NCBI GenBank assembly: GCA_020523885.1
Contig: JAJAPY010000018.1
Coordinates: 1 to 64,000, forward strand
From: Candidatus Liberimonas magnetica
Lineage (GTDB): Bacteria > Elusimicrobiota > Endomicrobiia > Endomicrobiales > JAFGIL01
DNA length: 64,000 nt
Reading direction: 5' to 3'
Positions 136-14,459 of this stretch are shown here, one piece after another. A model generated the notes under the pieces. The model ran no database searches and was not told the DNA's origin. It saw nothing but the letters and a program-made list of their open reading frames with translations. Numbering within the stretch: the first letter of the stretch is position 1; the number at the start of each line of letters is the position of its first letter. Position numbers and translations under genes: made by a program.

Positions 136-1542
136 TTACAACTTAAAAAGCAATTTAAGGCCGGCTAAAAGCTGGTCTTTTAGGAGGCGCAGGGTGAATA
201 TGTGTTTAAAATAATTATTGAAGATATATGCTGGCCTTGAGTAAAAACTTTTATATGCATGATATGAGATACTTTCTAGTTCCTGTTTTGAAAAATCTCC
301 GGGGCAGTAAGTGCTCTCTATTTTGTAAGTCGGGTCTGCGGCATATCTCTGCCAGAAATCTTCTTTTACATGGCCTTTTGCCATGGCATCCTTATAAAAA
401 CCTGTGCCTGGGAGCAGTTTCGTTATGGCAAATACGGCAAAATCAAGTTTCAGCTCTTTGGCAAACTCAATGGTCTTATTGATCTCTTCTTTTGTTTCGG
501 TCGGCGATCCTATCATGAAATTACCGTAAGTCAAAATACCGGCATCCTGCGTCATTTTGACCACTTCTCTTATCTTATCAAGAGCTATATTTTTCCCAAG
601 GAGTTTTTGCACCCTGTCCGTACCTGACTCTATGCCAAACTGGATAAGGGTACATCCGGCTTTTGCCATCGCATCCACCATCTCCTTATCCATTGTCTGT
701 ATCCTTGCCCTTATGTTCCACCTGAACTTCAAGTTTCGCTCGTAGATGCCCTTGGATATTTCAAGGACCCTCTTTTTATTGAAAGTGAAAAGTTCGTCAA
801 AGAACAAGATATCTTTTATTCCTAGCGCCAGGCATTGTTCTATCTCATCTAAGACAAGTTTTACAGAACGGTCTCTTATCTTTGTGCCGCCTGCGGGGCA
901 AAACGGGCAATTAAAACAACAGCCCCTTGAACTCATTATCGTAGTTATCGGTTTTCCCCGCGCTATGAGCGAGAAATACCGCTTATAATCCGTCAATTTT
1001 CTGTCAGGTACAGGCAGTTTGTCCGGCTCATCAACAATTACATTAGGTAAAACTTGATAATTCTTGCCTTTCACCAGGACACCTGGCAAGTCATCTATGG
1101 ATTTATTTTCGCTGAGCCTGTCCAGTATCTCTTTAAAAACAATGTCTGCTTCTCCGCGAACTGCATAATCAACCTCAGGTATATTGATGGTTTCTATCGG
1201 ATACAAAAAAACATGCGGCCCGCCTACAATGACCTTTATATCTTTACCTGCCTTTTTAACTGCCCTGGCAGTTAAATACCCGTCTCCAAGGTATTCCGTA
1301 TTCCAGCTTATCCCCACTATTTCGGGGGTTTCCTTTCTTACGATATCTTCTATCTGGCTATAGCTCAGGTTATCAAGGCATGCATCTATCAGTTTTATCT
1401 TATGTTTACCTTCTTTCACAACCAGCGTAGCAAGGTGCAGGAGTCCAAGCGGAGGAAAAGACCCTGCATCTTCCATATAAAACTCAACAGGCCCAGCCGA
1501 AGCCGGACTTTTCTTTGGTGGAAAAATAAGTAATACTTTCAT
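136..1542 (-). CDS. Cobalamin-binding radical SAM protein (1 of 4)
   Basis: 468 aa. Residues ~1-165 look like the Rossmann-type cobalamin-binding domain (opening MKVLLIFPP, GGPH turn at ~107-110). Residues ~195-420 are the radical SAM barrel, with the Fe4S4 motif C208-x3-C212-x2-C215 in RGCCFNCPFC. The DxHxxG base-off motif of classical B12 methyltransferases is absent, which is common in the BchE/HpnR/methylase-like superfamily, so the substrate cannot be read. The tail ends in a basic, amphipathic stretch that could touch the membrane. It is the last gene in the direction of transcription, 61 nt after another paralogue. The ATG is preceded by an A-rich stretch without a clear Shine-Dalgarno. 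The family is certain; the reaction (methylation, ring formation or other radical chemistry) is unknown. Confidence 0.9.
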   Translation of the reverse strand: MKVLLIFPPKKSPASAGPVEFYMEDAGSFPPLGLLHLATLVVKEGKHKIKLIDACLDNLSYSQIEDIVRKETPEIVGISWNTEYLGDGYLTARAVKKAGKDIKVIVGGPHVFLYPIETINIPEVDYAVRGEADIVFKEILDRLSENKSIDDLPGVLVKGKNYQVLPNVIVDEPDKLPVPDRKLTDYKRYFSLIARGKPITTIMSSRGCCFNCPFCPAGGTKIRDRSVKLVLDEIEQCLALGIKDILFFDELFTFNKKRVLEISKGIYERNLKFRWNIRARIQTMDKEMVDAMAKAGCTLIQFGIESGTDRVQKLLGKNIALDKIREVVKMTQDAGILTYGNFMIGSPTETKEEINKTIEFAKELKLDFAVFAITKLLPGTGFYKDAMAKGHVKEDFWQRYAADPTYKIESTYCPGDFSKQELESISYHAYKSFYSRPAYIFNNYFKHIFTLRLLKDQLLAGLKLLFKL

Positions 1543-1604
1543 GTTTTTTTGTTTTTGTCTTTGCCTTTTCTTACAGCTTACCGCTTATAGCTTATCGCTG
1601 CCGT

Positions 1605-3044
1605 TCACGCTCTTCCCGTAGCGGTTCTTAAAAGCACCTTAAACCCCTGCCAGGCTGTTTTAAATTGTACCCAGGTCCTGAATTTTAGCAGGAACCTGAA
1701 CAGGTTAACAGGGTTAAGATAAAACCTCATATAAGTTTCTTTTCTTACTTTCTTTACAAGTTCATCAGAAACATATTCAAAAATCCGTTTGAAATCACTT
1801 TCAATAAATGTGTCCCAGTCAATATCAGAAACATTATGATATCTCTTCTCGATATAATAATCAAACAACTCTGTACCGGGATACGGGAAAGCCATGCTTA
1901 TTAATACTTTATCAAGCGGAAGTTTGCCTATAAGTTCAGAGGTCATTAGTATATCTTCGATTTTTTCTGTAGGATAACCCATAATGAAGAACCCCTGCAT
2001 GATAAAGCCGAGCCTGTTTGCTGTCTTTATCGATACTTTTGCCTTTTCAAGGTCTAAAGACTTCTTGCACAGCTCAAGAATCCGTTTTGAACCGAACTCT
2101 ATGCCGAATGACATATAGTAACAACCTGCTTTTTTCATAAGCTTTAATAGCCCCTCATCTAACTTGTCCGCGCGTACGCCGTTCGGCAAACTCCAGGTAA
2201 TGTCGAGCTTTCTTTTGATTATCTCATTACAGACCTCGGCTGCATGGTCGCGGTAAAACGTAAAATTATCGTCTATAACCTGCAGCTCTCTTATTTTATA
2301 ATTATTAGCCAGGAACTCCAGCTCATCCACAAATTTCTTCGGGTCTCTCATCCTTATTTTTGAGCCGTGGATAGTCCTTGCAGCACAAAAACTGCATTGA
2401 TACGGGCAGCCGCGTGAGCTTACAACCTGAGTAATGGGCAGCCTCTTGGCTATGAATCCATGGACCTGGCCGCGCTGATAGTCAAGCGGGTTTATAATAT
2501 CCCACGGATAACACAAATCATCAAGGCCTGTAATGCTTTTTGGAGAGTTTGACCTGACTTCAAGGTTCTCTCTGTAGACCAAGCCAGCTACAGAATTAAA
2601 ACCGTTATTTTTATAAATAGTTTCAATTAAATCCGGGAAGGATTCTTCCCCTTCTCCTGAAATAACAAAATCTATTTCCTGATCTTTCTTTATTATCAAA
2701 CCTGACAATACACTTGCGTGGGGCCCGCCCAGGACTGTGATGATGCCGGGATTTGCTTTTTTTATGGCCTTTGCGATCTCCAGTATGCTCTTGTACTGGA
2801 AACTAAACCCTGTGATCCCCACGATATCCGGGCCAAACTCATTTAAAACGCTCAACAGTTCCGGCCTGTGGTCTTCAAAAAATGTCGAATCAAATATCCT
2901 GACAGAATGATTTTGTTTTTTTAATGAAGCTCCTATATAACCTATGCCTAAATTAGGCGTAGAATACCTGAACAAATTTTCATCCTGAGGAGGTATAACC
3001 AGTAAAACCTTACTGGGGTATGATTTAATATTATAATTTTCCAT
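1605..3044 (-). CDS. Cobalamin-binding radical SAM protein (2 of 4)
   Basis: 479 aa. An N-terminal B12-binding fold (KVLLVIPP, LGGPHA at ~105-110, SGEGEE at ~129-134) is followed by a radical SAM barrel with C213-x3-C217-x2-C220 in RGCPYQCSFC. The GEGE segment after the B12 domain and the GIEFGS turn in the barrel are typical of this superfamily. The C-terminal ~60 residues are basic. It starts 3 nt after the stop of the upstream GT2 gene, so it is almost surely cotranscribed with it. Its sequence differs clearly from the other three paralogues in the window, which suggests distinct substrates rather than a recent duplication. Confidence 0.9.
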   Translation of the reverse strand: MENYNIKSYPSKVLLVIPPQDENLFRYSTPNLGIGYIGASLKKQNHSVRIFDSTFFEDHRPELLSVLNEFGPDIVGITGFSFQYKSILEIAKAIKKANPGIITVLGGPHASVLSGLIIKKDQEIDFVISGEGEESFPDLIETIYKNNGFNSVAGLVYRENLEVRSNSPKSITGLDDLCYPWDIINPLDYQRGQVHGFIAKRLPITQVVSSRGCPYQCSFCAARTIHGSKIRMRDPKKFVDELEFLANNYKIRELQVIDDNFTFYRDHAAEVCNEIIKRKLDITWSLPNGVRADKLDEGLLKLMKKAGCYYMSFGIEFGSKRILELCKKSLDLEKAKVSIKTANRLGFIMQGFFIMGYPTEKIEDILMTSELIGKLPLDKVLISMAFPYPGTELFDYYIEKRYHNVSDIDWDTFIESDFKRIFEYVSDELVKKVRKETYMRFYLNPVNLFRFLLKFRTWVQFKTAWQGFKVLLRTATGRA

Positions 3045-3047
3045 AGT

Positions 3048-4034
3048 CTAAACTGTTTTTCCTTTTATTTTGTACCTGTCCAGGATCAATTCCTGCATAA
3101 AACCTATATTCCAGAATATGACGGTAATAACCAGCATAAAAAGAAATTTAAGGCTTTTAAATAAGTCTTTGGTTTTGTAAGTAAAATATATATAAACAGT
3201 TAATAAAATAATAGAACAAAGCAAAACGAAGGACTTTAATTTTATTGATATGCAGAATCCGATAAAGGCAAATAAGATCAAAGGTATATAATGAATGAAC
3301 CTGAACAGCCCGTACGTTTTAACCAGAAAACTTTGAGCCCTGCCGTAATTAAACATCATCCGTACAAATTTCTTGAAACTATCCGGCCTGTAATGGTAGA
3401 CAACTGCTTTCGGATTGAAATTGAACTCATACCCTTTTTTTGCAAGCCGGTAATCTATATCCAGGTCCTCTCCGGGCCAAAGGCCTTCAAGGAACCCGCC
3501 GATATCAGTCAAAACTTTTTTTATGTACATCACGTTGCATGTAGGATTATGTTTTGTTTTTTTTATTACATCCGAATTCTTGACATAATCTGCCGTAAAA
3601 CCCACTATTTTTAAAAAATCCTGAACCATCCGCCCGAACACGGTTTCATCCTGAGGACTCTGCTGGTCACCGCCGGTACTAACAACGGGTCCTGAGTCCT
3701 GAGCCATGAGTCCTGAGTTAAAACCTTTTAGCAGCTCGTTAAGCCATTGTGGATGAACTATGCAATCGGCATCGGTAAAGGCAACATATTCCCCTTTTGA
3801 CTCTTTTATTGCAAGGTTCCTTGCGGCAGAAGGGCCTATGCCGGTTGTTTCAAGTACTTTTATATCTTTAAAACCTGATAGGATATCTTTTGTCGAATCG
3901 CAGGATCCGTCATTTACTATTATCAACTCATAGTTCGGATAATCAAGTTTTTTCAATGACTCTATACATTTTCCAATATATGAAGATGCATTTCTTGCAG
4001 GGATGATAACTGATACTAAAGGGTTATTGCCCAT
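3048..4034 (-). CDS. Family 2 glycosyltransferase with C-terminal membrane segments
   Basis: 328 aa. The GT-A fold opens with LVSVIIPARNA (res. 6-16) and VNDGSCDSTKD (40-50). A DxD-type metal site, TDADC, lies at 87-91, and EDLDIDYRLAKKG supplies the later acidic motif. Three to four hydrophobic segments after ~240 anchor it to the inner membrane. It overlaps the upstream membrane-protein gene by 11 nt. An oddity lies at residues ~106-128: the low-complexity segment NSGLMAQDSGPVV is encoded by a tandem nucleotide phrase (about 3688-3718) resembling the intergenic phrase repeats, with a partial inverted copy at about 3649-3665. It looks like an in-frame insertion. Acceptor and sugar donor are unknown. 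Confidence 0.88.
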   Translation of the reverse strand: MGNNPLVSVIIPARNASSYIGKCIESLKKLDYPNYELIIVNDGSCDSTKDILSGFKDIKVLETTGIGPSAARNLAIKESKGEYVAFTDADCIVHPQWLNELLKGFNSGLMAQDSGPVVSTGGDQQSPQDETVFGRMVQDFLKIVGFTADYVKNSDVIKKTKHNPTCNVMYIKKVLTDIGGFLEGLWPGEDLDIDYRLAKKGYEFNFNPKAVVYHYRPDSFKKFVRMMFNYGRAQSFLVKTYGLFRFIHYIPLILFAFIGFCISIKLKSFVLLCSIILLTVYIYFTYKTKDLFKSLKFLFMLVITVIFWNIGFMQELILDRYKIKGKTV

Positions 4035-6033
4035 GCTTTACTCCTATGACTACAAGCCCCATTTCGTTCACAAATACAGGCGGTTCGAAATACTTTTTAT
4101 ATTTCTCTATCTCCGGAGCTTTTTTCTCGTATGTGTCCCTTAACAGGACCAGGGAGTCTATGTCATTTATATATTTTTCAAATGATCCCATGTACTGGTC
4201 GTTCAAAGGATCTTTAAAGAAACCGGTCCATACATCATTTCTCGGGTTCGGATCAAAACTCGGCGGCAGGCCGTGAAAACAGGGATGTATGAAAAGGTAA
4301 TGAGCGAACATTGTCGGCCAGGTCCAGGCTATTTTAGTATCCGGAAATATCCTTGTCCCGGGTTTTATGTATTTATCAATAACATTGTTATAGGACAGGG
4401 TCTGTTCTATGTTCATTTCCCAGGCAGAGGAAGTGTAATTTATGCCTTTCTGATATTTATTTATAAAAGGAAGCAAACAAATAAAAACACCCGCTAAGAT
4501 CAGAGTTACAACTTTTCTGCTTATCCATTTAGTTTCATCGCTGATGATATACAGGACTCCCGCAACAAGCAAGGCTATCGGGGCCAGTTCTATAAAACGA
4601 TAGATCCTATCCAATGGAGGATTGGCTTTTTTAAACAGGTACAATATAAAAGGATTGAATAATATCAGCTCAAGGCATATCAGAGGTGCCGACAGGAAAA
4701 CCTTCCATATTTTTTTTACCTTAAATGAAAATAGTACAGGGATAAGGCAAAGAAGCGAAAAACCGAAATAGTAGTTCCTTACAAAGTATTGCCAGAATTT
4801 CAAAACAGGGTATTTCCCGTAAATATAAGTATAAAAACTCCAGCCTATGCTTTCAGGCGACATAAAAATAGGGTTTACGATGGCGGAATCCAGAAGCTGT
4901 TTGTAATATAATGTATATCCTATCGAAGGAATGAACAGAAAAGAATAAGTGATCGCTCCTTTTTTATATAATTCGGTTTCTTCAGTCTTTACAAAATAAC
5001 AGGCTAAAAATACTGCCAGATACACGAAAAGAAGCAGGAAGAGGTAATAAAAATGTATGAAAGGTATTAATACGGATATCACTAATATTTCCCTTTTAAA
5101 CAGCCTATGCTCATTTATGCCCTTAAAAATATAATAAAAGAACATGGGAATAAGCATATCCCTGGCAAGTGATGAAGGGTAAGCATTCTCAGACCAGAAC
5201 CACCTGTGCTCGAGCAAGGGTGTTTCTCCTGTCGTGATATTTAATCCAAGGAAAGAAAAGTATATAAGGTAGATGACCGTACTTACTTTGCCCCAGTAGC
5301 TGTCCTTAAAAAGCTCTCTTGCTAATAAATAAAAACATGCTATTTTGATCACAGTCAGGTAGAAGTTGCTGTACAACCATACATAAGCCGTATCCTTTGC
5401 ACTTATATAGCTTATGAACGCAAGGAATAAATGCCAAATATTACAGCCGTACTGCGGGTAAGGCAGTTCTTTTATCAGGAAATTATTGAATAATACAGGA
5501 GATATCTCGCGCAGTTTCCTTATTGCAGAACCATGCCAGGTGTAATCTCCGCTGAGCCAGCAGCCGTATTTTATCCCAAGGTAAACTGAATATAAAACCG
5601 CTGCGAACATAAACAGGTTTATCAGGCTGAACATCTCACCCTTTGGGTCTTTCCTGCCTTTGTCAGCGGATTTTGCATCATTTACCGTATTTTTGCTTTC
5701 CAAAAATTTAGCCGGCGTTAAAACAGCAAGGCACAAAAAAACCATATATACTGCGAACAACATTCCAAGCGTAAACTTTAACAAATATGCCAGCAAAGAA
5801 GGCACCAGAAAAAGAGCAAGTGCATTAAGAAAAACAAACGGCAAAGAAATAAACAAATTTTCCCGTTTTCGTTCTACGAACGGGAAGTTGGCATTATACG
5901 AGATAACAAATATCAGGAATACCGCCGCAAGGATATCCGCTTCAGCCATCCCGGTCGAGACATACGATGACCGCAAAGCGAACAAGAGAAAAGCGCATAC
6001 GATAGAAACATAAAAACCAGGTTTAAACTTCAT
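4024..6033 (-). CDS. Multi-spanning membrane protein, possibly GT-C-like
   Basis: 669 aa, mostly hydrophobic, with roughly 12-14 predicted membrane helices up to about residue 540 and a ~120-residue extracytoplasmic C-terminal tail. I recognise no conserved motif. The layout (many helices, first large loop after helices 1-4, soluble C-terminus) resembles GT-C-type lipid-linked-sugar glycosyltransferases, but no catalytic acidic motif can be assigned with confidence. It overlaps the upstream methyltransferase by 4 nt (ATGA) and the downstream GT2 by 11 nt, so the three are translationally coupled. Context points to sugar transfer onto a lipid carrier or extracellular glycan; that part is inference. 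Confidence 0.75.
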   Translation of the reverse strand: MKFKPGFYVSIVCAFLLFALRSSYVSTGMAEADILAAVFLIFVISYNANFPFVERKRENLFISLPFVFLNALALFLVPSLLAYLLKFTLGMLFAVYMVFLCLAVLTPAKFLESKNTVNDAKSADKGRKDPKGEMFSLINLFMFAAVLYSVYLGIKYGCWLSGDYTWHGSAIRKLREISPVLFNNFLIKELPYPQYGCNIWHLFLAFISYISAKDTAYVWLYSNFYLTVIKIACFYLLARELFKDSYWGKVSTVIYLIYFSFLGLNITTGETPLLEHRWFWSENAYPSSLARDMLIPMFFYYIFKGINEHRLFKREILVISVLIPFIHFYYLFLLLFVYLAVFLACYFVKTEETELYKKGAITYSFLFIPSIGYTLYYKQLLDSAIVNPIFMSPESIGWSFYTYIYGKYPVLKFWQYFVRNYYFGFSLLCLIPVLFSFKVKKIWKVFLSAPLICLELILFNPFILYLFKKANPPLDRIYRFIELAPIALLVAGVLYIISDETKWISRKVVTLILAGVFICLLPFINKYQKGINYTSSAWEMNIEQTLSYNNVIDKYIKPGTRIFPDTKIAWTWPTMFAHYLFIHPCFHGLPPSFDPNPRNDVWTGFFKDPLNDQYMGSFEKYINDIDSLVLLRDTYEKKAPEIEKYKKYFEPPVFVNEMGLVVIGVKHGQ

Positions 6034-6932
6034 TTTTTTATCTTTTTAGAAACCGTGATCAGTTCCTCGTCACCTAAAAAATACCAGTACTTCAGCACCA
6101 GGCTCGAGATTTTTATTGCCAGTTTCTGATAAAGCGAAATTACATCTTTTTTTGATTTTAATCCGAATATAGAAGATAATATCAGGAGCCAAAAAAGAGA
6201 ATCCGCACCTCTTTTTACTGTCTTTAATATACTAAACCCCCTGTCTTCAAAAAGCCTTCGCAATGACTGTTCAGAGAAATGGTGTATATGCACGGGCACC
6301 TGCCACCAACCCCAGTGTTTTTTAAAAATTGCAGCTGTTCCTGCCCTGCTGTTAGGCACCAGCAGTATCAGGTAATCGCCTTCCTTTAAATATTTGTTCA
6401 GCCTTATTAAATAATCTTTTACGTCTGCAATATGCTCTATTACATGGGACAGGACAAAACATACAGTCTTGTTGTTTTCTCCCGTCCCGCCTTCTGCTAT
6501 CCATTTTTCAAAGGTACCTTCAAAAACGTCAAACCCTTTTCTCCTGCATTCTTTTACCGCATTACTGCCTATTTCTATCCCTAAGAGGTCGTTATACCCC
6601 AAGCTCCTTAATTCTTCAAGAAAAAAGCCGTACATGCACCCTACATCGATTATTCTTGCATTCTTCGGCACTATCTTTTCAAACACTGCCAATGTTTTTC
6701 TTATCCTCCACTTTTTCTCCGAGGATATCTCAAGGTGCGCAGAGTAATTGTATGTTTCGTCATATATCCGGCTTAATTCAGCTTGATCCGGCGGGTTTGA
6801 AAGATAAATATGCGAGCAGTTTAGGCATGAAACAAGAGTATAAGGTTTTGTCGAATAAACAGATGAGACTTCTCCGAAAAATTCACTATTATTGCCTTTG
6901 CAAATAGGACATTCATTTAAATTATTGTTCAT
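6030..6932 (-). CDS. SAM-dependent methyltransferase with N-terminal zinc ribbon
   Basis: 300 aa. An N-terminal zinc-ribbon (C8-x2-C11 ... C36-x2-C39) precedes a class I methyltransferase fold with motif I IIDVGCMYGFF at ~94-104 and the later acidic HVIEHIADV segment. This architecture (zinc ribbon plus Methyltransf_23-type domain) is frequent in O-antigen and lipid-linked glycan clusters, where it methylates sugars or processes nucleotide-sugar intermediates. The C-terminal ~60 residues contain one hydrophobic stretch (LFWLLILSSIFGL). It is coupled by a 4-nt overlap to the downstream membrane protein. The substrate cannot be named from sequence. Confidence 0.85.
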   Translation of the reverse strand: MNNNLNECPICKGNNSEFFGEVSSVYSTKPYTLVSCLNCSHIYLSNPPDQAELSRIYDETYNYSAHLEISSEKKWRIRKTLAVFEKIVPKNARIIDVGCMYGFFLEELRSLGYNDLLGIEIGSNAVKECRRKGFDVFEGTFEKWIAEGGTGENNKTVCFVLSHVIEHIADVKDYLIRLNKYLKEGDYLILLVPNSRAGTAAIFKKHWGWWQVPVHIHHFSEQSLRRLFEDRGFSILKTVKRGADSLFWLLILSSIFGLKSKKDVISLYQKLAIKISSLVLKYWYFLGDEELITVSKKIKK

Positions 6933-6958
6933 TTCTTGATTCTTTTTCTGAACCTTTT

Positions 6959-8134
6959 CTAAACCTTAAAATATGTTTCTTCTATCTTTTTTAAAACATC
7001 TTCCACGGTTATCTTATCCATGCATTCCGCGCTCTGTTTAGAACAAATTATACGCTTTGAGGAATGCACGTTCATGCACGGGCTGCAATCGATGTTCTTA
7101 AAAAACACTATGTCGCCTTTTCCAAGCGGGCCGCACAAAGAAGGCGTTTCCGGCCCGAAGAAAGATACCGTACGCAGTTTCACGGCTACGGCAAGATGCA
7201 TAGGACCGCTGTCGTTCGTTAAAAGGAACATGGCTTTTTCGAAAAGGCATGCCAGCTGGCCGAGACTCGTCTTGCCCGCAAGGTTAAGAAGGTTTTCTTT
7301 TTTCACTATTCCGGCTGCTATATCGGCTACATAGCCAGCTTCCTTGCTGCTGCCTATCATGACTATCTTTGCTCCGTGTTTTTCTATGAGCTTATTTATA
7401 ATCTCTTGATAATTCTTTTTAGGCCACCTTCTTTCATAAGCCATAGGGTCATTGTTGACGTTGACTGCAATTAACCGTTCATAAGAGCGCCATTTTTCGC
7501 TCAGCAGCCTTTCCACGATCTTCCTGTCATCGTCCGAGAGGGCCAGGGGCGGCAGATCATTCGAATTAACTCTGACACCTATCAGTGAAAGCATATTGTT
7601 GAAATTATCCGTTAAATGCCAGTACCTGTTGAACGGGACCTTGACCGTATGGAAATTGCCCCTCCAGACTTCCCACGTATTGAAACCGACGCTTACTTTT
7701 GCATTGACAAGATAGGTCAAAATAGAGGAAAACCTCGTAAAGAATTCAAAGTCCAGCAAAAGATCGAACCTTTCCTTCCTTAAACAGACCAGCACAGATA
7801 AAAGGTCCTTTAAAAATATCATTATGCCGTTATCAAGCCTCACCGTGACGACTTCCTCAAACAGGTTAAGAAGTTGGCATATCTCCCTGTTCCTTGAAAG
7901 TGTCAAAAAAGTTATACGTGCGTCCTTATAACCGTCTCTTAGAGCCCGGAGCGCAGGTGAGGCCATAATTATGCTTCCCATACCCCAGAACTTCATTACA
8001 ACTATTTTATTTATTTTATCGGGTTTTCCCTGTTTTTTCCAGAACAGAGATAATAATTTATCAAAAACGGTTATAAAAGAGCATACGAACACTCCCACTA
8101 CAGCGTCTATTGACCTCATCAAATTATAGTTCAT
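6959..8134 (-). CDS. Family 9 glycosyltransferase with membrane-anchored N-terminus
   Basis: 391 aa. A ~40-residue hydrophobic extension (MRSIDAVVGVFVCSFITVF...) precedes the GT9/heptosyltransferase fold, which begins KIVVMKFWGMGSIIMASPAL. The C-terminal donor-binding domain carries the signature NDSGPMHLAVA and FGPETPSLCGPLG, and the usual Cys-rich end (CSPCMNVH...C...C). The position normally occupied by the catalytic Asp (GD in WaaC; GD in the three other GT9 domains of this window) is Ser here (GS). It may therefore use another base, or transfer another sugar. It lies 20 nt after a radical SAM gene and 26 nt before the zinc-ribbon methyltransferase. Confidence 0.87.
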   Translation of the reverse strand: MNYNLMRSIDAVVGVFVCSFITVFDKLLSLFWKKQGKPDKINKIVVMKFWGMGSIIMASPALRALRDGYKDARITFLTLSRNREICQLLNLFEEVVTVRLDNGIMIFLKDLLSVLVCLRKERFDLLLDFEFFTRFSSILTYLVNAKVSVGFNTWEVWRGNFHTVKVPFNRYWHLTDNFNNMLSLIGVRVNSNDLPPLALSDDDRKIVERLLSEKWRSYERLIAVNVNNDPMAYERRWPKKNYQEIINKLIEKHGAKIVMIGSSKEAGYVADIAAGIVKKENLLNLAGKTSLGQLACLFEKAMFLLTNDSGPMHLAVAVKLRTVSFFGPETPSLCGPLGKGDIVFFKNIDCSPCMNVHSSKRIICSKQSAECMDKITVEDVLKKIEETYFKV

Positions 8135-8154
8135 GTTCTCGCCTTTGATTCTAT

Positions 8155-9591
8155 CTATGCTCTTTTTATTCCAAGCAAGTTTTTTAAAAGAAAAACCGGT
8201 ATCTCTATCAAAGCTTTCAGGTTATAGTTATACGACGATTTATCAAAAAACAGGCCGAACGCTTTTAATGGGTGCAGGGCAAAAAATAAAAAGTATGCCG
8301 CTGAACGCCACCTCTGCAATTCTCCCATACGAATATCGGACAGTTCATAGCAGTCATAGCCGAACTGCTGGTAATTTTCCCAGTTGTTTGAAAGCACCCG
8401 AGCCCCGCTTCCCGGGGTCTCGGCTATTTTTCTGAGTTCGGTTCCCGGGTTAGGTATAATTAGGCCGAACGAGAGCGCGTCGGGATTAAGCCTCAGGGCA
8501 AAAACTATCGTTTGAAAAATAGTCTTTCTTGTCTCTTTGTAATGGCCGAGAGTAAAAAAACACCTCAGCTTGACCTTATTCCTTTTTATTATCTTCACTG
8601 CCTGTATTATATCGAGTATCGATTCGCCTTTTTTTATTACATCCTTAAGTATGTCCTTGTTCCCGCTTTCAACCCCGAGAGCTATCCATTCGCAGCCCGC
8701 TTTTTTCATTGTTTTTACAAGCGAATCGCTTACGATATCAGCCCTTGTTTCGCAGTCCCACCTTATTTTTTTACTTATGCCGGTCTTTATCATTTCCTCG
8801 AACAACAGGCCGGACTGTTCTTTGAACAAACCCATAGTTGCATCGCAGAACTGGACTCTTGAGATCCCGAACTTTTCTGCAATAAGCTTCAATTCCTCGA
8901 TTATGCTTTTATGGTCCCTTACCCTGACCTTTTTGCCCAGGTAATTCGGAGTGCAGAAATAGCATTTGAACGGGCACCCTCTTGTCATAGCCACTGGTAA
9001 TAGGTCGTTGTATTCCTTAAGCCTAAATTTTTCCCATAAAGGAAAAGGCAGGCCGTCAATATTTTCAATGACCGGCCTTTCTTCGTTCACAACGATGTCC
9101 TGGCCGCTTCTGAAAGCAAGTCCTTTTATGTTTTTAAGAACCCCTGGATTATTACCGTTCCCATTTTTTATCTGCGTAATCAATTCAACAAAAGTTTCTT
9201 CTCCTTCTCCCCTGACACAAAAATCTATAGCACTGTTCTTGCGGAGCATTTCTTCGGGAAGTATGGTGGCATGGGGCCCGCCCACTGCGAGCGGCAGTTC
9301 TTTGAAGTTTTCTTTTATTTTTTCACAAAGGATGCCGGCATGTTTCATATCGTTCGTAAATGCAGTTATGCCGGCCAGTAAAGGCTTGTTGCGGGATATA
9401 TCTTCAAAAAGATTTTCCAGGCTTTCGCTTTTAAGCCTCAGGTCTATAACCCTTGAATCTATACCGTTTCTTTTGCAGTAAGCAGCGATACTCGCAAGGC
9501 CAAGGGAAGGCACAAGAGCTTCATTGGCATAAATTATATCTTCCGTTCCCATAACCTTTCTGGAAGGATGAATTAGGAGTACATTATCCAT
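8155..9591 (-). CDS. Cobalamin-binding radical SAM protein (3 of 4)
   Basis: 478 aa. The B12-binding domain (VLLIHPS, VGGPHATILPEE at ~103-114, RGEGEETF at ~128-135) is followed by a radical SAM barrel with C206-x3-C210-x2-C213 in RGCPFKCYFC. The barrel also shows LGVESGN and, near the end, NPGTELRKIAE, both typical of the family. It is spaced 24 nt and 20 nt from its neighbours, consistent with one operon. The C-terminus is rich in aromatic and hydrophobic residues. No SPASM or other extra cluster motif is visible. The reaction is unknown. Confidence 0.9.
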   Translation of the reverse strand: MDNVLLIHPSRKVMGTEDIIYANEALVPSLGLASIAAYCKRNGIDSRVIDLRLKSESLENLFEDISRNKPLLAGITAFTNDMKHAGILCEKIKENFKELPLAVGGPHATILPEEMLRKNSAIDFCVRGEGEETFVELITQIKNGNGNNPGVLKNIKGLAFRSGQDIVVNEERPVIENIDGLPFPLWEKFRLKEYNDLLPVAMTRGCPFKCYFCTPNYLGKKVRVRDHKSIIEELKLIAEKFGISRVQFCDATMGLFKEQSGLLFEEMIKTGISKKIRWDCETRADIVSDSLVKTMKKAGCEWIALGVESGNKDILKDVIKKGESILDIIQAVKIIKRNKVKLRCFFTLGHYKETRKTIFQTIVFALRLNPDALSFGLIIPNPGTELRKIAETPGSGARVLSNNWENYQQFGYDCYELSDIRMGELQRWRSAAYFLFFALHPLKAFGLFFDKSSYNYNLKALIEIPVFLLKNLLGIKRA

Positions 9592-9615
9592 AGAATATTT
9601 CCGTTCTTTAATGTT

Positions 9616-11064
9616 TCAGCATTTCTTGTAGTCAGCAAAAAGATAGGATAAAAAATTAAATGCACCTCTTATTTTGCGGTAAAGATCAGGCAGGCCTCTT
9701 GTACGGAAAAGAAAATTTAACATATATCCCGGCCTTAGATAGAACTTTTTTAACCCGTAGTCTACATAATGCTTAATTCTCTCGCCGCTTATACCGGGAT
9801 ACTCTACCACAGGAGACTGCTCGCCGGAATCAAGCCACTGGCTCCATTTTGTGGCCTTTAGCCAGCCCTTGTCCACGCACATATTATAAAAATCAGTCCC
9901 TGGAAAAGGCACAGCTCCGGAAAACTGTAACGTGGTAAGGCCGAGGTTCATAGCATAGTCTAAAGTCTTTTTTGCTGTCTCTTCGGTTTCGCCCGGAAGG
10001 CCTATAACGAAACAGCCGTGAACGTCAAACCCGAATTCTTTTGCGGTTCTGGTAAACTCTTGCGCCTGTTCGATTTTGAGCTTTTTATGGCTTTTGTCTA
10101 ATATCTCCTGGACACCGGACTCATAACCGACAAGGAGCTCCCTGCACCCTGCTTTCCGCATTATCTCAAACATCCGCCTGTCACAGTTGTCGGCTCTAGC
10201 ATTGACTGAAAAAGTTATTTTATGCCCGCGCCGCAAGATCTCTTCACATATACCTACAGCCCTTTCTGTATTTACTGTGAAAGTATCGTCTTCAAAAAAA
10301 AACTCTCCCCCTTTTAGAACATCAGGGCAGAGCTTTATGTCGTACTCTATTTCGTCAACCACGTTTTTTGAAGAGCGGAACCTGTAGTTTTTGCCGTGCA
10401 TGACCTGGGGCCAGAGGCAAAATACGCACTGGTTCGGGCAGCCTCTCCCCGAGATAATGTCTATATAAGGGTAGAGTTTCCCGCCATCAAAATATTTCAT
10501 CAGGTCAAGGTGATGCCAGGCCGGAAAAGGGATTTCATCGAGGTTGCTGATAGGTTCACGAAGTGGAGTCACAAGAGGCGACCCGTTTTCAAGATAGCAT
10601 ATCCCCTTTACGTTTCCCAGCTTTTTATACCCTTCTATTACATCCCTTACCGTATAATCGTATTCACCGATACATGCCACATCTACAGCCCCGCCTGCTT
10701 CCATTATGGTTTCTTTTGGGAATATGGAAATATGCGGGCCCACCATGATGACTTTTGCGTTAGATTCCTGCTTTACGATCTGGGCACACTCTATATCCGA
10801 ATAAATGGAAGGAGTGGTTGAATCAAGAACAACAAAATCCGGCTTTTCGCTTTTTATAAGGTTTCTAAGCTCTTTCTTGTCCCAGCCCATAGCAGGAAAA
10901 TCAAAAAGTTTTACCTCGCAGTCTTTTATATCTCTTTCTATGACAGCCGCAGCATAAGCCAGCCAGTCCGGCGCCCTCAAGACCCGGCCGCGCGTTTTTG
11001 CCGCCCACCTCTGCGTCCGGCAAAAATCTTTTACAAAAGGTTCGTTGATGATTAATATTTTCAT
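9616..11064 (-). CDS. Cobalamin-binding radical SAM protein (4 of 4)
   Basis: 482 aa from the ATG at 11064. A longer frame opening upstream at 11109 runs back into an inserted inverted-repeat element and is rejected as the start. The B12-binding domain (MKILIINEPF, VGPHISIFPKE) precedes the barrel with C209-x3-C213-x2-C216 in RGCPNQCVFC. YESGVQEILDKS and FVIGLPGETEE are recognisable barrel motifs. The immediate leader is only 13 nt of non-element DNA and shows no Shine-Dalgarno, so the insertion may have replaced the original leader and altered expression. It is the first of the four radical SAM genes in the direction of transcription. Confidence 0.9.
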   Translation of the reverse strand: MKILIINEPFVKDFCRTQRWAAKTRGRVLRAPDWLAYAAAVIERDIKDCEVKLFDFPAMGWDKKELRNLIKSEKPDFVVLDSTTPSIYSDIECAQIVKQESNAKVIMVGPHISIFPKETIMEAGGAVDVACIGEYDYTVRDVIEGYKKLGNVKGICYLENGSPLVTPLREPISNLDEIPFPAWHHLDLMKYFDGGKLYPYIDIISGRGCPNQCVFCLWPQVMHGKNYRFRSSKNVVDEIEYDIKLCPDVLKGGEFFFEDDTFTVNTERAVGICEEILRRGHKITFSVNARADNCDRRMFEIMRKAGCRELLVGYESGVQEILDKSHKKLKIEQAQEFTRTAKEFGFDVHGCFVIGLPGETEETAKKTLDYAMNLGLTTLQFSGAVPFPGTDFYNMCVDKGWLKATKWSQWLDSGEQSPVVEYPGISGERIKHYVDYGLKKFYLRPGYMLNFLFRTRGLPDLYRKIRGAFNFLSYLFADYKKC

Positions 11065-11077
11065 AAAATAGTAGACA

Positions 11078-11280
11078 GTAGTAGGGGCGGGCCTTGCGTC
11101 CGCCCGCAACGATACAGAATTGTCAACAATTCTATTACCGTGAATATGATTTGCATGATAATATATTGACCCAATTCGATATTGTCATATTGTTTTTTAA
11201 TATTTTGTCATTATTTTGCCCAATTTTGATAATTTTATGCTATTTTCATTTCGGGCGGACGCAAGGCCCGCCCCTACTAC
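11078..11280. mobile_element. 203-bp MITE-like element with 29-bp perfect terminal inverted repeats
   Basis: Bases 11078-11106 (GTAGTAGGGGCGGGCC... ending CGCCCG) are exactly the reverse complement of 11252-11280. The 145-bp interior is strongly AT-rich, unlike the GC-rich arms, has no ORF, and contains an 8-bp palindrome pair (AGAATTGT/ACAATTCT near 11115). It fills the whole gap between the GT2 stop and the radical SAM start. No transposase is present, so it is non-autonomous. An obvious target duplication could not be fixed because of the short GTA repeats at the ends. Confidence 0.8.
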
Positions 11281-11283
11281 CTC

Positions 11284-12414
11284 CTATTTTTCGTATTTTA
11301 TTTGAAGCATGCTTGTCAAAAATGCCGCAAATATAGTTTGTATGCCCATAGCTACGAGCGTCAGGGAAACAAGACCGGTTTTTATCTGCTCAAGCTCTCC
11401 AAAATCATTGAGCGCCCAGACAATTATTATATAGATACTGAAGCCCAGGCCCAAAACAAAAAGTAAGATGCCGAGAAGTATTGAGCGTTCAAGAGAAAAT
11501 ATTTCAAGCGCCTTTTTGGTAAAACCGCTTTCTTCAAGGCCGACCTGGTGGGCATATATCTTCGCGCAAAAACCAAGGTTTAGGACCTGCCAGCCGAGTA
11601 TTGCAAGCAGGCTTGAAAAAACCATCACGTGTATGTCCCATTCCCTGCCGGCAAAATATACAGAGCCGAACAGGAACCTTATAGTGATAAAAAATCCAAG
11701 GCCGAAGAATATAAGCCCGGGCAGGAAAAACAGGTAATTCGGGCTGTATACAAGCATAAACCTTATATGCCTCCAGGCATCGCGGAAAGATTCGAGCTTT
11801 GACTCTCCCTGCCTGGCATGATATGTGATAGGGACTTCGGTTATTTTAAGTTTTTTCTTCAAACTATGTATGACCATCTCTGAAGCAAATTCCATACCGG
11901 TAGCGTGAAGACCCATCTTACCATACGCTTCTTTCGTAAAAGCTCTAAGCCCGCAGTGCGAGTCAGAAACCGTACCTCCGAAAAACAACCGCAGTAAACC
12001 TGAAAGTATCGGATTACCGATATATCTATGCGACCAGGTCATTGCACCGGGCAGGATATTACCTTGAAACCTTGAACCCATGACCAGCTCATAACCTTTT
12101 GCCAGAAGAGAGACGAATTCATCAAGTTTCGAGAAATCGTAAGTATCATCGCCGTCTCCCATAACTATATATTTGCCGGAAGCTTCTTCTATGCCTTTTA
12201 TCAGAGCGCTCCCGTACCCTTTTCTAGGTTCAAATACGACCTTTGCCCCGGCCTCCCTTGCTATCTTGACCGAATTATCCGAAGAACCGTTGTCTACAAC
12301 AACGATTTCGCCTGTCAGCCCGGATTTCAAAAAACCTTCTTTTGCCTTTTTAATACAGGAGGCAATCGACTTTTCTTCGTTCAAACAAGGTATGACCACT
12401 GAAATATCAACCAT
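11284..12414 (-). CDS. Polyprenyl-phosphate-type family 2 glycosyltransferase
   Basis: 376 aa. The GT-A domain is of DPM1/GtrB type: ISVVIPCLNEEKSIASCI at the N-terminus, VVDNGSSDNSVKIA, and the DxD-like GDGDDTYDF at ~96-104. About four membrane helices follow after residue ~235. This family moves a sugar from a nucleotide donor to a polyprenyl phosphate, feeding flippase and GT-C enzymes. It overlaps the upstream PilZ gene by 8 nt, so c-di-GMP sensing and glycosyl transfer are translationally linked. The donor sugar is unknown. Confidence 0.88.
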   Translation of the reverse strand: MVDISVVIPCLNEEKSIASCIKKAKEGFLKSGLTGEIVVVDNGSSDNSVKIAREAGAKVVFEPRKGYGSALIKGIEEASGKYIVMGDGDDTYDFSKLDEFVSLLAKGYELVMGSRFQGNILPGAMTWSHRYIGNPILSGLLRLFFGGTVSDSHCGLRAFTKEAYGKMGLHATGMEFASEMVIHSLKKKLKITEVPITYHARQGESKLESFRDAWRHIRFMLVYSPNYLFFLPGLIFFGLGFFITIRFLFGSVYFAGREWDIHVMVFSSLLAILGWQVLNLGFCAKIYAHQVGLEESGFTKKALEIFSLERSILLGILLFVLGLGFSIYIIIVWALNDFGELEQIKTGLVSLTLVAMGIQTIFAAFLTSMLQIKYEK

Positions 12415-12892
12415 TTTTATGCCCTGCCATCCTGAGCTTTTGCTCTTTTTCTTCTTCTTTTGAAATATTCTGTGAAATAAAATCCGTTATAAGTTTGCTT
12501 GTTTTATGCCCGAGTTTTTTAAACGATACCCCGACTATGACCTGCGTAGCTTTTTTATCTTTTTCTAAACAAAGCTCTTTCTTGTTCCAAACGCTTTTGC
12601 CTACTGCTTTTATATATTCCACATCGCCTTTAAACACTGTTTTTTTCTTGAAGTACAGGGGTATCTCTAATTCTAGAACCAGTTTCTTATCAAGCATAAT
12701 TTGTTTTCTCTTTTTATCCGGGTCAAGCAATGCAAGGCAGATGCCGCCTTTGCTTATATCCCTGCTTATCCCGTATTCCCATTCGGTTTTAGAAGTATTT
12801 TTTGATCCGCCTAAAGCCCTGAACCTGACCAGAACAGGCTTATTAAGCCTTACATACCTTCTTTTTTCTATACCGCTAAATTTGTTTTTCAT
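12407..12892 (-). CDS. PilZ domain protein (c-di-GMP receptor)
   Basis: 161 aa. It carries both c-di-GMP binding motifs of PilZ: RRYVR (RxxxR) at about residues 11-15 and DISKGGI ((D/N)xSxxG) near 49-55. A β-barrel continues to about residue 150 and the lysine- and glutamate-rich C-terminus ends the chain. No other domain is present. Its stop lies inside the next gene (8-nt overlap with the GT2), which suggests that it controls that transferase directly. No diguanylate cyclase or phosphodiesterase lies in the window. Confidence 0.85.
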   Translation of the reverse strand: MKNKFSGIEKRRYVRLNKPVLVRFRALGGSKNTSKTEWEYGISRDISKGGICLALLDPDKKRKQIMLDKKLVLELEIPLYFKKKTVFKGDVEYIKAVGKSVWNKKELCLEKDKKATQVIVGVSFKKLGHKTSKLITDFISQNISKEEEKEQKLRMAGHKNG

Positions 12893-13002: not shown

Positions 13003-13383
13003 TTAAGCCCCTAATTTCGACTCTATAACTTCTACCAGGGACTCCACCGGAAAAGGTTTTGTTATAAAACCTTCGACACCGCAATTTTTTGCATTTTTTC
13101 TGTCTGGTTCGGAGATATGCGAAGTTATAATAAAAACATGTATATTTTTTAGCTTTTTGTCTTCTTTGAGTATCTTCGTAAAAGCACAGGCATTTACTTT
13201 CGGCATATTTTCTTCAATAAAAATAATATCAGGCAGGAGTTTGCTCCTTTTTAAGACCTCTATTGACACTATCGCATCCGAAGAAGGTTCGATTTCATAG
13301 CCGTATCTTCCCAGGTTCGCGCATACAAATACCCTTATGGTCATTGAATCATCGATTACCATGATCCTTTTCGGGCGGTTCAT
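13003..13383 (-). CDS. Stand-alone receiver-domain protein with Glu at the phospho-acceptor site
   Basis: 126 aa, a single CheY-like receiver. The acidic pocket is D11-D12 (VIDDS), the conserved Ser/Thr lies in IITSH at ~84-88, and the conserved Lys is in TKPF at ~108-111. The phospho-acceptor Asp expected in the LxDxxMP motif is Glu57 (FIEENMP; codon GAA). Glu can mimic constitutive phosphorylation, so this may be an always-on or non-phosphorylated pseudo-receiver. No output domain or histidine kinase is adjacent. Its start overlaps the hemW stop by 4 nt. Confidence 0.88.
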   Translation of the reverse strand: MNRPKRIMVIDDSMTIRVFVCANLGRYGYEIEPSSDAIVSIEVLKRSKLLPDIIFIEENMPKVNACAFTKILKEDKKLKNIHVFIITSHISEPDRKNAKNCGVEGFITKPFPVESLVEVIESKLGA

Positions 13384-14459
13384 ACAAATTCCTTCATTAC
13401 CTGATTTGCCATCAATAAGCCCTGACGGGTAAGCTTGATGTTCTGGTTATCTTTTTGGAGCAGACCCTTTTTTATCAGTACTTCGATAACATTCCTGTAT
13501 TTTTGTTCTATATGTTTGTGCAAAAAAAACCCGCTCGTACAGCGCAAATTCAAGATTATCTCTTCGCTGAGCTTCTTATTATAATCTATGTTCTCATATT
13601 CCTGTATCGGGCTTGCCCCGACTTCTATTAACCTTATGTATTCTTCAAGGTTTGAAGTGTTTTTCTTTCTGAAACCTTTTATATAAGAAGCCGCCGATAC
13701 TCCGATACCGATATACTCATAGTTATGCCAATAGGTTAGATTATGCCTGCACTTAAACCCCTCTTTAGACCAATTGGATATTTCATATTGACGGTAACCT
13801 TTTGATGCTAAATAATCCATGGAACACTCATACATACCGGCTTGTTCATCCTCGTCAACTGCAATATTAGACGAGGCAAAGGGCGTTCCGGGCTCGATTG
13901 TCAACGGATAAATAGAGATATGTTCCGGCGCCAGAGAAACCGCTGTCTGAAGGGTCCTTTGCCAATGCAGGAGCGTCTGGTTCGGCATTCCATAGATAAG
14001 GTCAATATTTATATTCGCAAAATCTACCCGCCTTGCCAAATCGTAGGCATTTAAAAAATCCTGAAAACTATGGACTCTGCCAAGATAGAAAAGCTCTTCA
14101 TCCATAAACGACTGCACTCCTATTGAAAGCCTGTTTACACCTATGGTCTTAAGCGTTTTTAATTTATCCAGAGTTAAAGACTCGGGGTTAGCTTCGACTG
14201 TAACTTCCGAAAGCCTGTGGCAATTAAAATTTGTTCTTATGCTTTTAAACAAGGTTTCAAAATTTGCGCAGGACAACAAGGTCGGGGTACCGCCGCCGAT
14301 AAAGATCGTAAATATATGGTTAGTGGAATATTTTTTCATTTCTTTTTCAACGGACTCCAAATATACAGGGATCGTTTCTTCCTGTCCGTGAAAAGAGACA
14401 AAATCGCAGTAATTGCACTTCTTTCTGCAAAAAGGTATGTGAATGTATAAACTGTACAT
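13380..14459 (-). CDS. hemW: HemW-type radical SAM protein (heme chaperone, HemN-like)
   Basis: 359 aa. It opens YSLYIHIPFCRKKCNYCDF with C11-x3-C15-x2-C18. The fourth Cys that distinguishes true coproporphyrinogen dehydrogenase HemN is missing (CDF rather than CGC), which points to HemW. IFIGGGTPTLLS, VEANPESLT and GVQSFMDEELFYLGR are standard HemN/HemW barrel motifs, followed by the HemN C-terminal domain from ~280. Known HemW proteins bind heme and insert it into respiratory proteins. It overlaps the receiver gene by 4 nt, an unusual partner. Upstream lies a phrase-repeat hairpin. Confidence 0.92.
   Translation of the reverse strand: MYSLYIHIPFCRKKCNYCDFVSFHGQEETIPVYLESVEKEMKKYSTNHIFTIFIGGGTPTLLSCANFETLFKSIRTNFNCHRLSEVTVEANPESLTLDKLKTLKTIGVNRLSIGVQSFMDEELFYLGRVHSFQDFLNAYDLARRVDFANINIDLIYGMPNQTLLHWQRTLQTAVSLAPEHISIYPLTIEPGTPFASSNIAVDEDEQAGMYECSMDYLASKGYRQYEISNWSKEGFKCRHNLTYWHNYEYIGIGVSAASYIKGFRKKNTSNLEEYIRLIEVGASPIQEYENIDYNKKLSEEIILNLRCTSGFFLHKHIEQKYRNVIEVLIKKGLLQKDNQNIKLTRQGLLMANQVMKEFV

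Follow-up and report, generated by a model that had tools for sequence, protein, structure and literature searches.

The window, a stretch of 64,000 nucleotides from an Elusimicrobiota bacterium, begins (window base 1) at one end, the start, of contig C18 of an assembly that comprises 3.39 Mb in 29 contigs, and a compact run of minus-strand genes is read towards this end. In the order of transcription, it consists of hemW, a small receiver-like protein, a PilZ-like protein, GT2b, RS4, RS3, GT9, MT, MEM, GT2a, RS2 and RS1, with the contig ending after the latter (Table 1). From RS4 to RS1 the successive intergenic spacings are 24, 20, 26, −4, −11, 3 and 62 nt, while 219 nt separate the end of GT2b from the start of RS4. 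The start of RS4 was set at 11064, where its orthologues begin with MK(I/V), and not at the mechanical TTG at 11109. The first-pass annotation had described four genes combining B12-binding and radical SAM domains with a CxxxCxxC motif, and in the same direction a GT9, a zinc-ribbon methyltransferase, a 669-aa membrane protein and a GT2, separated by short spacings or overlapping. The coordinates and the matches to PF01075, PF13489 and PF00535 agree with that description. Beyond that first reading, the GT2 gene located upstream, GT2b, also belongs to the set.

Table 1. Genes of the run at the start of contig C18, in the order of transcription (window coordinates)
Gene	Product	Coordinates	Strand	Supporting match
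hemW	radical SAM heme chaperone	13380..14459	-	NCBIfam TIGR00539, 326 bits (cut-off 205)
PilZ-like	weak PilZ-like protein	12407..12892	-	PF07238, E 7e-4, below cut-off
GT2b	GT2 glycosyltransferase	11284..12414	-	PF00535, 98.6 bits
RS4	B12-binding radical SAM protein	9616..11064	-	Pfam, both domains above cut-off
RS3	B12-binding radical SAM protein	8155..9591	-	Pfam, both domains above cut-off
GT9	GT9 glycosyltransferase, heptosyltransferase-like	6959..8134	-	PF01075, 96 bits
MT	SAM methyltransferase	6030..6932	-	PF13489, 77 bits
MEM	669-aa polytopic membrane protein with soluble C-terminal part	4024..6033	-	
GT2a	GT2 glycosyltransferase	3048..4034	-	PF00535, 110.7 bits
RS2	B12-binding radical SAM protein	1605..3044	-	Pfam, both domains above cut-off
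RS1	B12-binding radical SAM protein, last before the contig end	136..1542	-	Pfam, both domains above cut-off

At the upstream end, hemW is the border gene of the island described below and lies outside the pathway. The small protein encoded between hemW and the PilZ-like gene resembles, as judged by eye, a response-regulator receiver. The PilZ-like gene shares 8 nt with the beginning of GT2b and was not seen at the equivalent place in the island maps of relatives with which it was compared; its product is a possible regulator.

In each of the four radical SAM proteins the B12-binding domain precedes the Radical_SAM domain, and the cysteine motif is present in all of them (CCFNCPFC, CPYQCSFC, CPFKCYFC and CPNQCVFC). 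The DxHxxG motif is absent from all four sequences, as is usual in the cobalamin-dependent radical SAM class. Pairwise identities are only about 27–30%, none of the four reaches an NCBIfam equivalog cut-off, and in the tree they fall into four separate, conserved and well-supported clades. The earlier view of a cluster with several radical steps is borne out, and the enzymes lie outside the named families.

Such divergence might also be expected if unrelated radical SAM genes had simply gathered by chance in a genome rich in them. The genome has 95 Radical_SAM and 41 B12-binding matches in 3.39 Mb, four of the 41 being in this run, and clustering of B12-radical SAM genes is a habit of this genome: six lie within 322–344 kb of contig C2, and several other loci hold such clusters, some of them including glycosyltransferases. 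With randomly placed genes, we estimate that about 0.015 clusters of this kind would be expected. The genes of the run also lie on a single strand with small gaps and overlaps, and their orthologues co-occur elsewhere in the same type of locus, partly in the same order. RS2 and RS1 adjoin in two other genomes (G084:C11 and G087:C52), G091 carries RS4-GT2a-RS1 as an uninterrupted series, G094:C62 has RS4, GT2a and RS2 together, and G166:C165 has RS1-like, RS3-like (49% identical) and RS4-like genes within 7 kb. The first-pass annotation had proposed that separate conserved clades with unrelated neighbours would point to a chance gathering. The clades are indeed separate; the neighbours, on the contrary, are related. 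Given that loci of this type repeatedly bring the orthologues together, we reject a chance gathering, which we consider extremely improbable; the four-gene radical SAM cluster is real. Its members are distributed unevenly. Within the phylum RS1 has the widest distribution, being matched at E 1e-75 in 31 of 248 genomes, whereas RS3 is rare, with matches in only two other genomes at the same threshold, one of them 49% identical; its clade-mates in the tree are L113, L116 and L121. RS2 has orthologues in G084, G087, G094 and G001 (57%, between hrcA and grpE).

The cluster occupies a fixed chromosomal site extending from hemW to hrcA-grpE-dnaK, an island whose frame is kept in relatives while its contents are swapped. 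The hemW border was also found in G001, G003, G004, G005, G007, G084, G085 and G094. In G004 and in G001, the nearest relative and a member of the same family, the island reads hemW-GT2b-RS4-...-MEM-GT2a-RS1-...-PMT-like-...-hrcA-grpE-dnaK. G005 has the same borders, GT2b, GT9, MEM, RS1 and a PMT-like gene, with a different radical SAM gene at the position of RS4. Exchangeable genes of glycan type, including GT4, nucleotidyltransferase, PMT_2 and LPG_synthase_TM, populate the islands of relatives, and GT9 homologues (39% identical) are present in those of G005 and G098. In the genome studied here, hrcA lies near the end of another contig, C20, which from its end carries a short RhuM-like frame (assigned by eye), a PMT-like gene, RS5 (a fifth B12-radical SAM gene), a GT2 gene, hrcA, grpE and dnaK. 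In relatives the PMT-like gene follows RS1 on the same strand at a distance of 0–10 kb, and C20 is thus most likely the continuation of C18. Comparison of the ends of C18 and C20 revealed neither common sequence nor overlap, so that the join is based on synteny; by this reasoning most of the remaining part of the island is probably on C20. With high confidence, we regard the region as the window-side part of a glycan-assembly island.

The glycan assignment draws on the three glycosyltransferases of the run plus GT2b. In GT2b the GT2 catalytic domain is accompanied by four C-terminal hydrophobic segments (residues 227–366), and the best NCBIfam model is AglJ, whose score of 173.9 bits stays below the cut-off of 325; by sequence, the protein appears to be polyprenyl-phosphate-hexose synthase-like. 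MT has a zinc-ribbon-like stretch with two CxxC pairs at its N-terminus. MEM has no Pfam or NCBIfam match, and a search against PDB sequences found nothing. Its homologues occur in 5 of 150 genomes and, in all five as checked, in similar islands. An AlphaFold model of MEM, built from a four-sequence alignment, has a pLDDT of 40, too low to be of use, and profile-profile comparisons gave a weak 56-column match to STT3 (probability 33%) and a weak match over 379 aligned columns to a PMT-like family (probability 3%). We suspect that MEM is a GT-C-type glycosyltransferase and treat it as a candidate. No flippase was recognised in the window part of the island. Overall, the likely product of the island is an unusual sugar chain at the cell surface. 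A cluster for a RiPP or another small molecule, likewise with several radical steps, might be read from RS2, since its best model is the RiPP enzyme ApyD (188.7 bits). However, the ApyD cut-off of 750 is far off and BchE scores equally for RS2, no peptide-modifying gene was recognised in the run, and both the three glycosyltransferases and the glycan-type site common to relatives speak against this reading, which is scarcely credible.

Of all the genes in the island, RS4 offers the clearest view of a conserved functional context. Its orthologues, 55–72% identical, form a tight family present in more than 10 bacterial phyla as well as in archaea; the hosts include Omnitrophota, Elusimicrobiota, Sumerlaeota, Nitrospirota, Chloroflexota, Thermodesulfobacteriota, Myxococcota, Planctomycetota and others, together with archaeal metagenome-assembled genomes (MAGs). 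In two of the archaeal loci a type II/IV secretion ATPase gene adjoins. Misbinning of MAGs may affect single cases, but not the overall pattern. Partner genes were assigned with profiles that left a clear score gap (at least 301 versus at most 126 bits for GT2b; at least 213 versus at most 171 bits for GT2a). By this measure, GT2b accompanies RS4 in 29 of 48 loci, GT2a in 34 and either of them in 40, and many of the contigs end close to RS4. In a sister clade about 38–45% identical, used as a control, neither GT2b nor GT2a was found in any of 27 loci. GT2b lies directly upstream of RS4 in 19 loci and GT2a directly downstream in 25. The divergence of RS4 also runs parallel to that of its partners, with correlated distance matrices (Mantel r 0.79 for GT2b and 0.73 for GT2a, p 0.0002), as would be expected of genes that travel or descend together. 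The association of RS4 with the same two glycosyltransferases in bacteria and archaea suggests that a sugar is reshaped on a membrane lipid. The pair of GT2b and RS4 is not obligatory, since the two also occur apart: six genomes of the phylum sample have GT2b without a close RS4, so that GT2b may also serve other enzymes, and in G091, which has RS4, no GT2b was detected on the 6-kb contig. PMT_2 proteins are encoded near RS4 in several loci, and in Omnitrophota an STT3-type oligosaccharyltransferase accompanies RS4 in 11 of 16 loci. A search of the present genome for STT3 found none; the link observed in Omnitrophota is therefore not directly transferable. Among the open-licence papers searched, we found none describing a GT2b-RS4-GT2a module or the family that RS4 represents, which is related to HpnJ and tied to two glycosyltransferases across domains.

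The relationship to HpnJ bears directly on what RS4 might do. HpnJ (TIGR03471) is the best NCBIfam model for RS4, at 376 bits, with BchE next at 142. The HpnJ cut-off of 577.6 bits is missed both by RS4 and by four of its relatives (349–404 bits), whereas HpnJ of Mycetohabitans scores 844. In the FastTree tree HpnJ groups with RS4-like clades, support for the whole group being 100 and the inner order less sure. The two proteins are similar over their full length (about 35% identity) and share CxxxCxFC-LWPQ, in which LWPQ directly follows the cluster-binding cysteines; they also have in common 111 of 199 positions conserved in the clade, and both have a glycosyltransferase as a neighbour. The neighbours themselves differ: true hpnJ has HpnI and HpnK beside it, neither of which had a match among the scanned island proteins, whereas RS4 is partnered by GT2b and GT2a. 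HpnJ acts on lipid-borne glucosamine and yields a cyclitol ether (PMC12583986).

This kinship, along with the several radical steps, might be taken to favour a pathway for a membrane lipid or glycolipid of unusual type, be it hopanoid-like, ladderane or tetraether. Squalene-hopene cyclase (PF13243), however, has no match in this 97.8% complete genome, and we therefore rejected the hopanoid route. All four radical SAM proteins score only 122–124 bits with the ladderane model TIGR04072 against a cut-off of 360, and there is no lipid-synthesis gene among the annotated genes of the island, either here or in relatives. A pathway of this sort thus seems very unlikely. The first-pass annotation had left the product as an unusual lipid, glycolipid or small molecule; a lipid-linked or surface glycan is better supported than a free lipid or small molecule.

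Structure prediction points to a second relative. The AlphaFold model of RS4 (pLDDT 91) has as its best match among solved structures AprD4 with its aminosugar substrate (TM 0.78). AprD4, a radical SAM diol dehydratase acting on paromamine, thus provides the closest fold and a precedent for action on an aminosugar compound, but the fold alignment gives 20–22% identity between it and RS4, the AprD4 model yields 102 bits for RS4 against a cut-off of 500, and the substrate of AprD4 is soluble, not lipid-linked.

Given the kinship with HpnJ, the lack of a detectable cyclase and the synthase-type GT2b, an economical proposal is that RS4 rearranges a sugar on polyprenyl phosphate. In the scheme that follows, the substrates, reactions and cofactor use of the island enzymes are those that we infer. 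GT2b would load a hexose onto polyprenyl phosphate, and RS4, a predicted cobalamin-type radical SAM enzyme, would then rearrange the lipid-linked sugar by radical chemistry, most likely in an HpnJ-like rearrangement of the skeleton or ring or in an AprD4-like dehydration. GT2a and GT9 would extend the glycan, and at the outer face polytopic proteins of GT-C type, MEM in the window and the PMT-like protein encoded on C20, would take lipid-linked sugars as substrates. RS1, RS2, RS3, RS5 and the methyltransferase may be further sugar-tailoring enzymes that make up the variable part of the island. As the best overall explanation we favour, with moderate confidence, a glycan, either lipid-linked or on the surface, whose sugars are modified by radical chemistry and which is made by this succession of GT2b, RS4 and transferases. 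That RS4 acts on a lipid-linked sugar is, by itself, an evenly balanced proposition, and the assignment of its reaction as a rearrangement of ring or skeleton is tentative and less likely than not. The most specific version, in which RS4 of the GT2b-RS4-GT2a module turns a polyprenyl-phosphate pyranose into a carbocyclic (cyclitol) or otherwise skeleton-rearranged sugar that bacteria and archaea then incorporate into glycans at the surface or attached to proteins, is speculative and, as formulated, improbable.

A different division of labour has some appeal. RS4 and the other radical enzymes might be C-methyltransferases or deoxygenases whose substrates are nucleotide sugars or the glycan as it grows, with GT2b supplying an ordinary lipid-linked hexose. 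Methylation is the reaction of most known cobalamin radical SAM enzymes (PMC13142503), GT2b and RS4 are sometimes found apart, and the top structural match of RS4 is a dehydratase of a soluble aminosugar compound. On the other hand, HpnJ, the nearest family in sequence, is among the few cobalamin radical SAM enzymes listed as non-methylating (PMC13142503), and the GT2b-RS4-GT2a linkage is tight with correlated divergence. We regard this alternative as rather unlikely.

If RS4 does act in the proposed manner, radical carbon-skeleton chemistry would be added to lipid-linked sugar biosynthesis, a step whose familiar enzymes, to our knowledge, are confined to epimerases and redox editors like DprE1/E2. 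The glycans of several little-cultured phyla and some archaea would then hold sugars that current annotation cannot predict. GT2b-RS4-GT2a would constitute a precise and testable module, approachable through a homologue in a cultured carrier; one such homologue (L104, 55% identical to RS4) is found in Solidesulfovibrio alcoholivorans DSM 5433.

In its overall organization, the island recalls familiar glycan loci. O-antigen and capsule loci sit between fixed housekeeping genes, and here too the borders (hemW and hrcA-grpE-dnaK) are fixed and the glycosyltransferase content is exchanged among relatives. The variable part of the island differs in holding many B12-radical SAM genes, and no gene of Wzx, Wzy, Wzm or Wzt type was recognised among the annotated island genes. 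A second parallel is with lipid-linked sugar systems composed of a GtrB-type synthase, a flippase and a GT-C enzyme: GT2b resembles the synthase, and PMT-like proteins are encoded within the islands. As for editing of the sugar on its lipid carrier before use, DprE1/E2, whose redox chemistry alters ribose while it is bound to decaprenyl phosphate (PMC11127046), provide a precedent; in contrast to that system, the proposed editor here would be a radical SAM protein.

Between hemW, one border of the glycan-type island, and GT2b, a GT2 glycosyltransferase gene, lies a pair of genes for PilZ-like and receiver-like proteins that is found only in G000 (Candidatus Liberimonas magnetica) when its island is set against the maps of its relatives; these proteins possibly place the island under c-di-GMP or two-component control. 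The nearest relative, G001, has peculiarities of its own: its hrcA and grpE are separated by an inserted orthologue (57% identical) of the B12-binding radical SAM protein RS2, and one island protein is a fusion. At the end of contig C20, which by synteny most likely runs on into the window, a short RhuM-like frame is a plausible cause of the break in the assembly ahead of the window.

Features of the G000 and G001 islands (L026 and L027, G001 stretches; L055, C20 stretch)
Feature	Location	Remark
PilZ-like protein	window:12407-12892	weak; between hemW and GT2b
Receiver-like protein	window:13003-13383	between hemW and GT2b
RS2 orthologue	L027:1-1120 with L026:18625-20000 (G001:C13:38625-41689)	at hrcA/grpE
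GT2 domain + PaaK-like adenylate-forming domain, one protein	L026:2613-4790	725 aa; G001 island
RhuM-like frame	G000:C20:63868-64338 (L055:18868-19338)	short; between PMT-like gene and contig end; judged by eye

Elsewhere in G000, more than 20 Radical_SAM matches fall within less than 40 kb (C4:224686-262945). Many of these belong to short proteins that lack a B12-binding match, and this dense region differs in kind from the window cluster. Another Radical_SAM match (C21:53763-54056) lies inside a 7031-residue open frame. The Solidesulfovibrio carbinolicus plasmid NZ_CP026539.1 (L162:8350-25404) carries several radical SAM proteins together with glycan-type genes (epimerase, acyltransferase, glycosyltransferase).

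STT3-family oligosaccharyltransferases, rare among bacteria, adjoin GT2b-RS4-GT2a, the radical SAM gene RS4 with its conserved GT2 partners, at loci L066, L067, L069, L072, L073, L075, L077, L082, L083, L085 and L097, whose hosts include Omnitrophota and Nitrospirales. This adjacency hints at N-glycosylation-like systems.
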